A stretch of 64,000 nucleotides of DNA. Origin: Arthrobacter sp. TMP15. GTDB lineage: Bacteria; Actinomycetota; Actinomycetes; Actinomycetales; Micrococcaceae. The stretch covers positions 3,348,001-3,412,000 of the forward strand of contig NZ_CP154262.1 in NCBI RefSeq assembly GCF_039529835.1, written 5' to 3'. Both the position numbers and the translations under genes were made by a program. The notes under the pieces were generated by a model that made no database searches, was not told the origin of the DNA, and saw nothing but the letters and a program-made list of their open reading frames with translations. The number at the start of each line of letters is the position of its first letter. Position 1 is the stretch's first letter. Shown one piece after another: positions 6,498-64,000 of this stretch.

Positions 6498-6563
6498 AAA
6501 AGCCGCCGTTTGCGGATTAGGCCACCCGTCGCAGGGTGGCCTAATCCGCAAACGGCGGCTTTT
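6498..6563. terminator. 30-bp perfect bidirectional terminator
   Basis: Bases 6498-6527 are perfectly complementary to 6534-6563 with a 6-base loop (GTCGCA). The stem is GC-rich in the middle and ends in AAA/TTT, so it can work on either strand. It sits exactly between the ends of the convergent DUF2249 gene (stop at 6479) and DUF3151 gene (stop at 6576). The stem is unusually long and free of mismatches for an intrinsic terminator. Confidence 0.9.
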
Positions 6564-12385: not shown

Positions 12386-12434
12386 AAAGTGGTGCCGGCT
12401 CCAGCTGATAACCAGCCGGATCCGGCACCACTTT
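12386..12434. terminator. Hairpin terminator after phoA
   Basis: Bases 12386-12398 (AAAGTGGTGCCGG) pair perfectly with 12422-12434 (CCGGCACCACTTT), and the 23-base loop contains a second short GC pairing. The hairpin begins 5 bases after the phoA stop codon. It separates phoA from the GNAT gene that follows on the same strand. Confidence 0.75.
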
Positions 12435-25311: not shown

Positions 25312-25350
25312 CCCCACCAACCGACGCTCGCTCACTTTACGTAGGAAAAA

Positions 25351-25388
25351 ACAGAACGCTCCTTCACTTGTGTGAAGGAGCGTTCTGT
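25351..25388. terminator. 17-bp perfect bidirectional terminator
   Basis: Bases 25351-25367 pair perfectly with 25372-25388 around a TTGT loop. Runs of A precede the stem (25346-25351), giving a T-tract for minus-strand transcripts. It lies between the acyl-CoA synthetase (stop 25311) and proX (stop 25431), which converge. Confidence 0.88.
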
Positions 25389-25430
25389 AAAACCCGACCT
25401 AAACTGCAGGAGGGTTGGGGTGGAGGGCTA

Positions 25431-46780: not shown

Positions 46781-46837
46781 AAATAACTGAGGCGCTTTGC
46801 TCCATGGATTTCATGGAGCAAAGCGCCTCAGTTATTT
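46781..46837. terminator. 26-bp perfect bidirectional terminator
   Basis: Bases 46781-46806 pair perfectly with 46812-46837 around a GATTT loop; the stem begins and ends in AAAT/ATTT so it can act on both strands. It separates the convergent NlpC/P60 gene (stop 46753) and universal stress gene (stop 46859). Confidence 0.9.
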
Positions 46838-60340: not shown

Positions 60341-61912
60341 TTAGTTCAGCGGCCCAGTGGCTTTCTCTGCGGCAGCCCGGATGGCCCCGGAACCCACCAA
60401 GCGGTCCGCTTCCTCAAGTTCCGGGGATAAGAAGCGGTCACTACCAGGGCCCTGAACCGTTGCACGAAGCACCTCAAGCACTGCCGCGCCAGCTGGGCCG
60501 GGGAGCAATTCGCCGTCGGACATGGAAGTGCGCATGTCAATGGCGCGCGTGGCTGTGACCAGCTCGATGGCGAGCACCCGGCGGAGGTTTTCCACGGAAC
60601 TACGCAACTTGCGAGCGGCATGCCAGCCCATGGATACGTGGTCTTCCTGCATGGCCGAGCTCGGGATGGAGTCCACGGATGCGGGCACGGCCAGACGCTT
60701 GGAATCGGAGACCAGACCTGCCTGCGTGTACTGGGCGATCATCAATCCTGAATCAACTCCGGGGTCACCGGCAAGGAACGCGGGCAAGCCGTGTGAGCGA
60801 GCCGGATCCAACATGCGGTCGGTACGGCGTTCGGCGATGGAGGCCACATCAGCGCAGACAATCGCCAAAAAATCCAACACATACGCCACCGGAGCGCCAT
60901 GGAAGTTGCCGTTGGAGGACACGCGGCCGTCGGGAAGCACCACGGGGTTATCGATGGTGGCGGCAAGCTCGCGCGTGGCAACCATGAGTGCGTGATCCAC
61001 TGTGTCGCGGGCGGCCCCGGCCACCTGCGGGGCGCAGCGCAATGAATAGGCGTCCTGCACGCGGGAGTCCCCTACACGGTGCGAGGCCACGATGGGTGAA
61101 TTCGCCAGTACGGCCAGCATATTTTCGGCGCTAGCGGCCTGGCCGGGGTGCGGGCGCAGTTCCATGTGCAGTTCGGGCACAAACACCTGGTCGGTACCGA
61201 GCAGACCCTCCACACTGAGCGCGGCCGTGATATCCGCCGTCGTCAGCAGCATTTTTAGATCGGCGATGGCCATCAGGAGCATCCCAAGCATGCCGTCGGT
61301 GCCGTTGACAAGCGCTAAGCCCTCCTTCTCGGCCAGTTCGATCGGCGTGATACCGGCTTCGGCGAGCAGTTCGGGGACGGGGCGGATCTCGCCGTCGGGG
61401 CCGGCCGCCTCACCTTCACCCATAAGCACCAAGGCGCAGTGTGAGAGCGGTGCAAGGTCGCCGGAACAGCCCAATGAGCCAAATTCGCGGACCACAGGGG
61501 TAATTCCGGCGTTGAGTACATCCACCATCGTTTGGACCACAACGGGGCGGACCCCTGTGCGGCCACTGGCCAGGGTCTTGGCCCGCAGGAACATCAAGGC
61601 GCGCACCACCTCACGCTCCACGGCAGGGCCCATGCCCGCTGAGTGGGACCGGATGAGCGATTTTTGTAACTGCGTTCGCATGTCCGTCGGGATATGCCGG
61701 TTGGCCAAGGCACCGAAACCGGTGGAGATACCATAAGCAGGTGTCTCGGAGTGTGCCAGTTTTTCAATGTGCGCCCGAACGCGTTCCACGCCAGCCAGCG
61801 CCTCCGCACTGATCACCACCTGTGCGCCGTGGCGGGCAACAGCGATGACATCTTCGGGGGTGACGCCCGTGGATGAGAGTGTGACTTCTGGGGACTGTAC
61901 GGCGGCGCTCAT
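60341..61912 (-). CDS. hutH: Histidine ammonia-lyase
   Basis: 523 residues. Family marks: PAYGISTGFGALANRHI, GSLGCSGDLAPLSHCALVLMG, VNGTDGMLGMLL, LELRPHPGQ-like MELRPHPGQAASA, VQDAYSLRCAPQV and NGNFHGAPVAYVLD. It deaminates L-histidine to urocanate, step one of histidine use. The self-made MIO cofactor normally comes from Ala-Ser-Gly; here the tripeptide is Cys149-Ser150-Gly151 (codon TGT at 61468-61466), with Ser and Gly kept. hutG is at 53852; an IclR regulator lies upstream but a nuclease-like cassette separates the two. Confidence 0.93.
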   Translation of the reverse strand: MSAAVQSPEVTLSSTGVTPEDVIAVARHGAQVVISAEALAGVERVRAHIEKLAHSETPAYGISTGFGALANRHIPTDMRTQLQKSLIRSHSAGMGPAVEREVVRALMFLRAKTLASGRTGVRPVVVQTMVDVLNAGITPVVREFGSLGCSGDLAPLSHCALVLMGEGEAAGPDGEIRPVPELLAEAGITPIELAEKEGLALVNGTDGMLGMLLMAIADLKMLLTTADITAALSVEGLLGTDQVFVPELHMELRPHPGQAASAENMLAVLANSPIVASHRVGDSRVQDAYSLRCAPQVAGAARDTVDHALMVATRELAATIDNPVVLPDGRVSSNGNFHGAPVAYVLDFLAIVCADVASIAERRTDRMLDPARSHGLPAFLAGDPGVDSGLMIAQYTQAGLVSDSKRLAVPASVDSIPSSAMQEDHVSMGWHAARKLRSSVENLRRVLAIELVTATRAIDMRTSMSDGELLPGPAGAAVLEVLRATVQGPGSDRFLSPELEEADRLVGSGAIRAAAEKATGPLN

Positions 61913-62058: not shown

Positions 62059-62124
62059 CTCGGGGGTAGCTAATACTTTTCGCACGTGGCAGACGTACTG
62101 CACAGAGTATTAGCTACCCCCGAG
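62059..62124. repeat. Palindromic repeat, copy 1
   Basis: Nineteen bases (62059-62077, CTCGGGGGTAGCTAATACT) pair perfectly with 62106-62124. The inner part (TTTTCGCACGTGGCAG ... CTGCACAG) contains a second imperfect pairing GTGGCAG/CTGCAC. A near-identical copy lies at 63217-63279. This copy sits between the starts of divergent genes (hutH and the nuclease-like gene), a place where a terminator is not expected. The rest of the 325-bp spacer holds their promoters. Confidence 0.9.
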
Positions 62125-62237
62125 CACCAAGGCGGCTCTGTGGAATCACTCCTCCACACTCCGGACAGCGGGCAAGGTTTTCCACATTCGTGTGGGTCTC
62201 CATGTTCCGCCGGCCAGGCGCCTCCCATTCTTGAGAC

Positions 62238-63224
62238 ATGACGAACTTTCTACTGCCCCCGTTTATTACTGCCTCAAGTAAATACACCGACGAATATTCC
62301 ACCAGGCGTCTTGCTCAGCAAGCTAAGAAAGGCTCCTTGATCCGCGTACGGCGCGGGTGCTATCTCCCCACGGAGGTGTGGGAGTCATTAAGACCTTGGG
62401 AAAAATACCGCATGAAAATTCAAGCCGTCCATGAATTGGCTCAGTATCCGCCGGTTTTTGCCAGAGAGTCTGCCGCCCAGATTATGGGTCTTCCACTGGT
62501 ACGCATTCCCCAAGAAGTCCAAACGGTGATCTCCCCCAATAACAATGGTGGGCAGAGTAACTACGGAGTTCACCGGATCAGTGCCGTTGCCGGCGATCCT
62601 CCACCGTGGGAGATGTTCGGTCTGCTGGTAACGCCACCGCCGCAAACAGTGCGTGATTTGGCCGTGCGTTTACCACTGAGTGAATCGCTTCCAGCCATGG
62701 ACTACCTCCTGCAACGAAAGATCCTGCCGGGCTCCCCCATCAACACCCAGCTGACCTTTTCCGAAACCAGCGTTCAGGACAGCCTGGCCCCGCTGCTCTA
62801 CGGCGTCCAACGTCGCCGAGTTCTGCGGGTATTGGAGGTGGCAAACCCACACTCCGAGTCGCCTGGCGAATCTGTCAGCCGGGCCTTCATGATCGAGTAT
62901 GGTTTCCCACTCCCAGTCCTGCAGAGTCTCTTTACAGATCGAGAAGGACTCATCGGAAGAACAGATTTCCATTGGGAAGAATATAGGTTGATAGGTGAAT
63001 TCGATGGCTACGAAAAGTACTCAGATCAACGATTCCTCCGAGGCAGGACGCCATCTGAAGTGGTTGTTACTGAAAAGAACCGTGAGAACCGCCTGCGCGC
63101 CAAAGGCTACAACGTGGTTCGGTGGGTTTGGCGTGACCTCAAAGATCCACGGAGGCTGGCTCAGCTCCTCTCCGAGGCCGGGTTGCCCTCAACAATCCGG
63201 GCAACGACAGGGGCTAGGGGGTAG
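62238..63224 (+). CDS. AbiEi-like HTH plus DUF559/Vsr-like nuclease protein
   Basis: 328 residues. Residues ~15-50 (YTDEYSTRRLAQQAKKG, RVRRGCYLP) resemble the N-terminal winged domain of AbiEi-type antitoxins. Residues ~95-190 are a middle domain with no known motif. The C-terminus (~230-315) looks like a DUF559/Vsr-type PD-(D/E)xK nuclease: FPLPVLQSLF, IGRTDFHWEEYRLIGEFDGYE (metal Asp and Glu/Asp), VVVTEKNRENRLRAKGYNVVRWVWRDL. No partner toxin gene is adjacent. The last codons and TAG stop (63222-63224) lie inside the second palindromic repeat. Possibly a defence or toxin-antitoxin relic; function unknown. Confidence 0.75.
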   Translation: MTNFLLPPFITASSKYTDEYSTRRLAQQAKKGSLIRVRRGCYLPTEVWESLRPWEKYRMKIQAVHELAQYPPVFARESAAQIMGLPLVRIPQEVQTVISPNNNGGQSNYGVHRISAVAGDPPPWEMFGLLVTPPPQTVRDLAVRLPLSESLPAMDYLLQRKILPGSPINTQLTFSETSVQDSLAPLLYGVQRRRVLRVLEVANPHSESPGESVSRAFMIEYGFPLPVLQSLFTDREGLIGRTDFHWEEYRLIGEFDGYEKYSDQRFLRGRTPSEVVVTEKNRENRLRAKGYNVVRWVWRDLKDPRRLAQLLSEAGLPSTIRATTGARG

Positions 63225-63279
63225 CTAGTACTTTTCGCCCGTGGCAGACGTACTGCACAAAGTATTAGCTACCCCCGAG
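63217..63279. repeat. Palindromic repeat, copy 2
   Basis: GGGGGTAGCTAGTACT (63217-63232) pairs with AGTATTAGCTACCCCC (63261-63276) with one G-T pair. The sequence matches copy 1 at all but about four positions over ~65 bases, including CGTGGCAGACGTACTGCACA inside and CGAGCACCA just outside. Same orientation as copy 1. It provides the stop codon of the nuclease-like gene and lies 9 bp before the stop of the IclR gene, so it may also terminate both. Confidence 0.9.
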
Positions 63280-63287
63280 CACCAGGC

Positions 63288-64000
63288 TTACTCCTCGCGG
63301 CGCCCGTAAATGCGGATTGAGAGCTCAGCAGCAACCTTCTTTGCCCTCTCAGCCAGGGCAGGCCACTTCTCAACGGGCACCTTTTCTTCTAAAAATGTGA
63401 CGGCCACCGCGGCAACCGGCCAACCGAGGTGATCGGTCACCACGGCCGCAACGGAACCAAAACCATCGCTAACTTCACCGTGCTCAGTGGAGTAGCCCCG
63501 GATCCGCACCTGATCGAGGTGGGCGGAGAGGGTGGAATATTTACTGATGGGCTCTGGAACATCGGTCAATGAACTGAACGCCGCAACATTCGGGTAGAGC
63601 ACCCTGACCTGGGACTTTGGCAGCGCCGCAAGGATGGCCCGACCGCTAGCTGTGAGGTGACTGGGCAAGCGGACCCCAACATCTGTCACAAGAGATGGCC
63701 GGTTCTTTGCTCGTTCCTCTGCAATATAGACCACATCGCGCCCATGTAGCACGGCAAGATGGGCACTTTCACCAATCTTATCCACCAGCGCCACCAGCAG
63801 GGGCCGGCCAAGCCGAGACAAGGGTTCCTGCCGCGAATACGCGCTGCTGAGCTCAAAAGCGGCTACGCCCAGTCCATAGCGCTGCTCTTCATGCAAGTGC
63901 ATGACAAAGCCACTTTGCTCCATAACATTTAGGAGGTGATAGACGCTTGAACGCGGAAGTTTCAATGTGCTGGCTATGGTCGACGCCGCCAGCGGTCCAC
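63288..64000 (-). CDS. IclR-family regulator, lacking its extreme N-terminus at window edge
   Basis: At least 237 residues; the gene continues beyond base 64000. The visible start reads GPLAASTIASTLKLPRSSVY then HLLNVMEQSGFV, the IclR HTH, followed by an effector domain (LSRLGRPLLVALVDKIGESAHLAVL, VVYIAEERAKNRPSLV, RLPSHLTASGRAILAAL, GYSTEHGEVSDGFGSVAAVV). TTG 63965 is not the start. IclR regulators often control hut genes in actinobacteria, so this is probably the histidine-use regulator, now separated from hutH by the repeat-bracketed cassette. Confidence 0.92.
   Translation of the reverse strand, partial: GPLAASTIASTLKLPRSSVYHLLNVMEQSGFVMHLHEEQRYGLGVAAFELSSAYSRQEPLSRLGRPLLVALVDKIGESAHLAVLHGRDVVYIAEERAKNRPSLVTDVGVRLPSHLTASGRAILAALPKSQVRVLYPNVAAFSSLTDVPEPISKYSTLSAHLDQVRIRGYSTEHGEVSDGFGSVAAVVTDHLGWPVAAVAVTFLEEKVPVEKWPALAERAKKVAAELSIRIYGRREE

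Follow-up and report, generated by a model that had tools for sequence, protein, structure and literature searches.

The locus between hutH and an iclR-type regulator in Arthrobacter sp. TMP15 probably belongs to a large, class-wide family of enzyme-palindrome pairs in which a nuclease acts on its cognate palindromes, homogenising and spreading them (we place the probability of this reading at about 0.6). Each gene of the family would encode an AbiEi-type DNA-binding domain and a Vsr-type (PD-(D/E)XK) nuclease and would be bracketed by ~60–70-nt cognate palindromes, with further lone cognate palindromes in intergenic DNA. The N-terminal domain would bind the palindrome, the nuclease would nick or cut it, perhaps as a cruciform or a single-stranded hairpin, and repair would then copy from another palindrome. 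The outcome would be that all copies are kept to one spelling and that new sites are seeded occasionally, while recombination at a palindrome could install the gene-bearing unit there or remove it. Known AbiEi proteins bind paired inverted repeats (PMC7319586), which supports the palindrome-binding step; we infer everything that follows it.

A more specific version is that the AbiEi-Vsr enzyme rewrites palindromes at fixed places into its own spelling, by cutting divergent or imperfect copies on which hairpin- or copy-templated repair then imposes the dialect, with the palindromes of a genome following whenever the gene alters its specificity or is replaced. This version is offered tentatively, at somewhat less than even odds. 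If rewriting is true, the REP/RAYT problem would have a second solution, unrelated to the first, that is common across the class and has several independent dialects in a single genome. The long-standing puzzle of REPs and RAYTs is why a single-copy enzyme keeps a population of palindromes in step; here a non-homologous system has the same logic, and its sites can be set side by side across species, so that the question can be addressed by comparison and with simple assays of binding and nicking. The system would also give a function to common AbiEi/DUF559-type genes of unknown role. Relatives have the gene-palindrome pairing in other spellings, which points to an enzyme-palindrome system not yet described, and no prior description was found in the open-access literature.

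The gene and its flanking palindromes

The window, i.e., the whole 64,000-nt stretch analysed, contains two direct repeats of 71 nt with 94% identity (four differences) on either side of a single gene (Table 1). Both copies fold strongly, into hairpins of ~20 bp with plus-strand DNA folding z-scores of −9.1 and −5.9, and none of 200 shuffles folds as well. The hairpin foot GGGGGTAGCTA (at most one mismatch) occurs five times in the window, four of these being hairpin arms, against 0.6 expected. The initial annotation described two near-identical hairpins around one gene, with copy 1 between divergent starts, copy 2 carrying the TAG stop of the gene and the unit separating hutH from iclR; coordinates and Pfam matches for both HutH and IclR agree with this layout.

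Table 1. Features of the locus and a lone palindrome elsewhere in the window (window coordinates)
Feature	Position	Strand	Basis
Upstream palindrome copy (hairpin 62059-62124)	62059..62129	+	Repeat match and folding; lone relatives elsewhere in genome
Gene encoding a 328-aa protein (AbiEi-like winged helix joined to Vsr-like nuclease)	62238..63224	+	Domain search, alignment, predicted fold
Downstream palindrome copy (hairpin 63214-63279), containing the stop of the gene (63222-63224)	63214..63284	+	Repeat match and folding
hutH, left neighbour, host gene at site	60341..61912	-	Domain-confirmed context
iclR-type regulator, right neighbour, truncated by window end	63288..63998	-	Context; domain-confirmed
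Lone palindrome in the spelling found around paralogue G000:C1:2439300 (second spelling, AAAGCCGCC type)	6498..6563	.	Two 30-nt arms, 100% complementary

Several more ordinary identities were considered for the window copies. A generic terminator was rejected because the terminator scan calls neither copy, and both are without a T-run. A known RNA family was also rejected: window Rfam matches are sub-threshold only (e.g., 20.6 bits for mir-55, whose gathering score is 53), and no family reaches its gathering score in eight other loci. Plasmid or phage cargo was discarded as well, with two weak plasmid matches (29–32% identity) and no phage match. Elsewhere in the window, positions 46781-46837 hold a 57-nt palindrome (two 26-nt arms, 100% complementary) with neither of the described spellings, and further long inverted repeats lie at 25321-25418 (47-nt arms, 72%) and 12386-12434 (22-nt arms, 91%).

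The window protein, which is 99.7–100% identical to a protein of Arthrobacter sp. H35-MC1, is an AbiEi-like DNA-binding half joined to a predicted Vsr-like (PD-(D/E)XK) nuclease. At the N-terminus, Pfam AbiEi_4 is matched weakly (E 0.0019, below the cut-off), and 40 of 73 aligned homologues match it at E 0.01. A structure model built from the 73-homologue alignment has a mean pLDDT of 93 and a pTM of 0.90. Foldseek aligns this model with AbiEi of Streptococcus agalactiae (6y8q) and with Rv2827c (1zel), each at E 2.6e-4, and its C-terminal half, at modest E-values, with Vsr (1vsr, probability 0.97, E 0.093) and the homing endonuclease I-Bth0305I (3r3p, probability 0.77, E 0.23); a profile search of solved structures gave a best match of only E 0.057. 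E211, D256, K260 and R282 occur in 73 of 73 sequences, and D243, E254 and E279 in 72. Among them, E211, D243, E254, D256 and K260 are candidate counterparts of the Vsr catalytic residues. The nuclease fold for which structure prediction had been proposed as a check thus appears in the model, as does the AbiEi-like helix-turn-helix, for which the Pfam signal is weak. The DUF559 label does not hold for the window protein, which has no such Pfam match; among the 73 aligned homologues, DUF559 is found in six and MTES_1575 in four. In the literature, MTES_1575-type domains count as Vsr-family nucleases (PMC3710099), and VsrA, a DUF559-containing protein of Caulobacter, is reported to be Vsr-like; the DNA-damage response of Caulobacter cells that are without a cytosine methyltransferase depends on it (PMC12907096), which supports nuclease activity of DUF559-type domains in general. 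The suggestion of a defence cassette was not supported: PADLOC matches are confined to AbiEi models and are weak (best E 2.3e-5), and the gene has HutH and IclR beside it, not a toxin gene.

Palindrome pairs, lone copies and arm complementarity

Most of the family genes compared are paired with palindromes. Of 92 homologue loci taken, 87 had enough flank (five were dropped for short flanks), and the best upstream-versus-downstream flank match has a median score of 35.5. In 117 control windows shifted by 2600 nt within the same loci, this match scores 13 at the median and 19 at most; for 300 crossed flanks the figures are 11.5 and 32. A pair in the same order with a score of at least 20 is present at 59 of the 87 homologues against none of the 117 shifted windows, a count that holds with two slightly different flank lengths and in which L048 duplicates L030 and L049 is of the same species as L018; the other 28 homologues have no pair (score <20). 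The upstream copy usually lies ~60–250 nt before the start (starts are partly extrapolated) and the downstream copy at or just past the stop. Most pairs are palindromic and some poorly so, with 41 of 59 passing a filter for clear palindromes of 50–80 nt. Spelling varies by lineage, and both flanks of one gene agree. The record of L048 (NZ_JADHDY010000022.1, titled Sporosarcina beigongshangi) has a contig of the same length (54,296) and gives gene and flank results identical to those of L030 from the Arthrobacter group; it is probably a mislabelled or contaminated assembly.

At class level, the family occurs in 170 of 296 sampled genomes at E 1e-30. Pair scores of at least 20 are found at 22 of 28 testable loci, many of them from one family (f38); one of 29 loci was dropped, the own locus (L212) was not used, and four of the 28 are genes already counted in the first set, which leaves 24 new loci, 21 of which reach 20. 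Crossed flanks at this level have a median of 12.5 and a 99th percentile of 271, a control spoiled by orthologous flanks, so that the class counts rest on the cut-off of 20 from the first set. The best match of the pair is inverted in many class-level loci and direct in the window. Many of the pairs in L222-L238 (mostly f38) are ~80-nt inverted repeats that are only partly palindromic, share ends like GAAATGATCACGTTC and resemble transposon ends more than hairpins.

This genome has four homologues of the family, the window gene included, and three spellings. The initial annotation proposed a genome-wide search for the repeat, and the repeat does occur elsewhere without cargo: the spelling of the window gene has four lone, diverged copies in addition to the flanking pair, six in all (a 15-nt match at C1:1008734 was dropped). 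The paralogue at C1:2439300 has a flank pair and seven lone copies, nine in all, one of which is the lone palindrome of Table 1; the seven were found by a pattern search with 19 matches against three in a backwards control. The paralogue at C1:79149 has its own flank pair (score 27), and the homologue at C1:2397734 has an upstream hairpin only. By crude gene calling, 22 lone copies comprise one between divergent genes, ten between convergent genes, nine in tandem contexts and two that the calling left unassigned.

Arms of the palindromes retain complementarity while their bases change. Across 17 copies drawn from six genomes, pairing holds in 92.3% of cells, and two-sided changes number 42 against 14.9 in shuffled data; this set leaves out four of 21 loci (L174, L177 and L181 repeat places and L187 is partial) together with matches that have no fetched locus. 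In seven copies of this genome, 99.5% pair, with 11 two-sided changes against 2.9 shuffled, in a structure whose outermost pair is off by one column. Within 41 palindrome arms, a short motif repeats at a 19-nt pitch (mean 5.12 of 9 against 2.81 shuffled, z 10.2), and none of the other lags from 8 to 25 nt exceeds z 2 in the same arms; many palindromes therefore hold four motif copies, although this pitch is absent from the palindrome of the window itself. Bases of the spacer between motifs change and pairing is kept, which favours recognition or copying of a folded form, or selection on an RNA hairpin. Copies with the GACGGCG spelling (L168-L188) often have GTAGAC, GTCTAC or GTATAC at the centre, with T29 and A32 invariant in 17 copies, and the hairpin centre could be a contact or cutting point.

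Spelling turnover at fixed sites

Spellings turn over while sites stay fixed. Relatives of the paralogue gene at C1:2439300 occur in 22 of 23 genus genomes (own included) and at the same place in nine of ten loci tested; its spelling occurs in only three of the 23, i.e., the own genome, the same-species one and, weakly, G013. The site of C1:2397734 is common to all 12 other loci compared. Among 20 relatives of the paralogue, the two flanks of one gene agree with a median of 0.89; between genomes, the value is 0.61 whether the same flank or opposite flanks are compared, and the within-gene value exceeds the best same-side value in 15 of 20. For 11 genes of the window type, within-gene agreement is 0.86 against 0.63–0.64 between genomes and is higher in seven of 11. 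Because these medians take in only genes whose pair was detected, they are tilted towards high agreement within a gene; the counts leave out L139 (same species), two skipped loci (L025 and L031) and 13 loci without a pair.

Two lone sites were compared genus-wide. At site L115, 20 other genomes comprise 16 with a long hairpin, two with a shorter, unlike one and two with none; at L114, the corresponding numbers among 21 other genomes are ten, one and ten. Site hairpins match the gene flanks of their own genome with a mean of 27.6 against 16.1 when permuted at L115 (17 genomes) and 34.1 against 18.7 at L114 (11 genomes), and none of 20,000 permutations is as good at either site; the permutations ignore kinship between genomes and leave out the shorter, unlike hairpins (G017 and G010 at L115, G017 at L114). 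The own genome ranks in the top three of 22 for 19 of 28 site hairpins and fifth or worse for the other nine (6/17 at L115 and 3/11 at L114), a misfit for which a cognate paralogue missing from the set is perhaps responsible. Groups with like spellings fall on more than one branch of a species tree made from three genes and, by eye, fit the gene tree better. Partial Mantel tests of protein identity against palindrome similarity, with species identity removed, are not significant in either set (r 0.10, p 0.18 for 14 loci; r 0.16, p 0.10 for 12 genomes), and we therefore do not claim that the protein allele sets the spelling.

The hutH-iclR junction occurs in three states, namely with neither palindrome nor gene, with a lone palindrome and with the full unit. 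Among 23 genus genomes (own included), the unit is present in five (own, same-species G148, G011, G016 and G006, the last near a contig end), a lone palindrome between adjacent hutH and iclR in four (G020, G002, G008 and G007) and no such hairpin in 12, while two (G001 and G012) have no iclR in reach. Relatives with a junction lacking the unit, for which a comparison had been proposed, are thus at hand: hutH directly adjoins iclR, with the gene absent, in 16 of 23. The four lone hairpins rank 1, 1, 1 and 2 of 15 for a gene flank of their own genome, and the genes that they match lie elsewhere, at the C1:2397734 site. The idea of a freshly mobile cassette is not supported, since four species (own, G011, G016 and G006) have the unit at one and the same site. 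Seven places with the paralogue spelling, from an earlier set that listed five of the lone copies, are also all common to the same-species genome, with flanks 97–99.7% identical and one place divided between two contig ends of that genome. There is thus no sign of recent movement. Neither a precise insertion border nor a very recent insertion was found among the compared genomes, and no two close genomes offered an empty and a filled version of a site from which exact borders could be read.

Alternative explanations and known systems

The AbiEi-like domain might instead repress its own gene through the upstream palindrome, with the lone copies acting as operators of a small regulon that track its specificity. 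AbiEi recognises a pair of 23-bp inverted repeats in its promoter, separated by 3 bp (PMC7319586), a layout near to two ~26-nt arms, and the 19-nt pitch is as expected of double-stranded binding sites. Such repression needs no second copy at or past the stop codon, however, and only one of the 22 lone copies, as crudely called, lies between divergent genes; the spacer keeps complementarity but not bases, and the putative nuclease residues are conserved. A regulon is unlikely. Less probable still is a homing-type element, in which the nuclease cuts genomes or sites with a lone palindrome, whereupon recombination between palindromes copies the gene in. Resemblance of the fold to I-Bth0305I and the three junction states would suit this, but most of the genus keeps two of the gene positions unchanged, both palindromes at filled sites are complete instead of being halves, and no recent pair of filled and lone sites is seen between close genomes. 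Intrinsic, often bidirectional terminators spread by ordinary duplication, with the nuclease gene incidental, would account for RNA-type covariation of the arms, for the many lone copies a few bases past stops (ten of 22 between convergent genes) and for the A- and T-runs at many feet. Terminators are nonetheless the least probable of these readings, as the window copies are uncalled and copy 1 lies between divergent starts; they would leave unexplained both the concentration of flank pairs around one family, with none in the shifted windows, and those pairs of some other families that are inverted and hardly palindromic.

The preferred reading, an enzyme acting on its cognate palindromes, has its nearest parallel in REPtrons (RAYT + REP), which the system would resemble in working without being one. 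RAYT (TnpA-REP) genes have REPs on both sides, with further REPs dispersed between genes; orthologues stay in place as their REPs change, and enzyme and palindrome are said to co-evolve (PMC2817692, PMC3116915, PMC3733652, PMC8266576). The system described here is similar in that a single gene is flanked by its palindromes (59 of 87 homologues), in that orthologues stay put while flanking palindromes change yet remain palindromic, and in that the palindromes are dispersed, but copy number is low (six and nine against the 37–427 perfect copies given for Stenotrophomonas REPs in PMC2817692). It differs in that its palindromes are ~60–70 nt and REPs 20–40 nt, the flanking copies in the window are direct whereas those of RAYTs are inverted, and an unpaired GTAG or CGTC head is missing from the foot of the stem. 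GTAG is present in the window copies within the paired stem; in the paralogue spelling it is absent from the foot and occurs in the loop of one of seven copies, and in the GACGGCG spelling it is often in the loop. No Pfam match to an HUH/Y1 (IS200/IS605-type) transposase was found in the window protein (E ≤1) or in the 73 homologues (E ≤0.01). An IS200/IS605 or RAYT origin was rejected on these grounds (no domain match, an AbiEi plus Vsr fold and no GTAG head at the foot). The REP analogy drawn in the initial annotation is thus retained for its logic (flanking palindromes, dispersed copies and co-diversification) and abandoned for the IS200/IS605 link and the GTAG head. With the logic matching and the enzyme, head motif, size and copy number not, we call the system a non-homologous analogue of REP/RAYT.

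Two further known systems are close in their domains. AbiE type IV toxin-antitoxin systems have the same N-terminal fold, and their AbiEi proteins bind inverted repeats (PMC7319586); in contrast, the C-terminal half here is Vsr-like, the cognate palindromes are dispersed and the window locus has no adjacent AbiEii nucleotidyltransferase toxin beside HutH and IclR. Vsr, DUF559 and MTES_1575 nucleases and I-Bth0305I resemble the C-terminal half in fold and probably in conserved acidic residues, but here that half is joined to an AbiEi-like domain and the gene is bracketed by palindromes.
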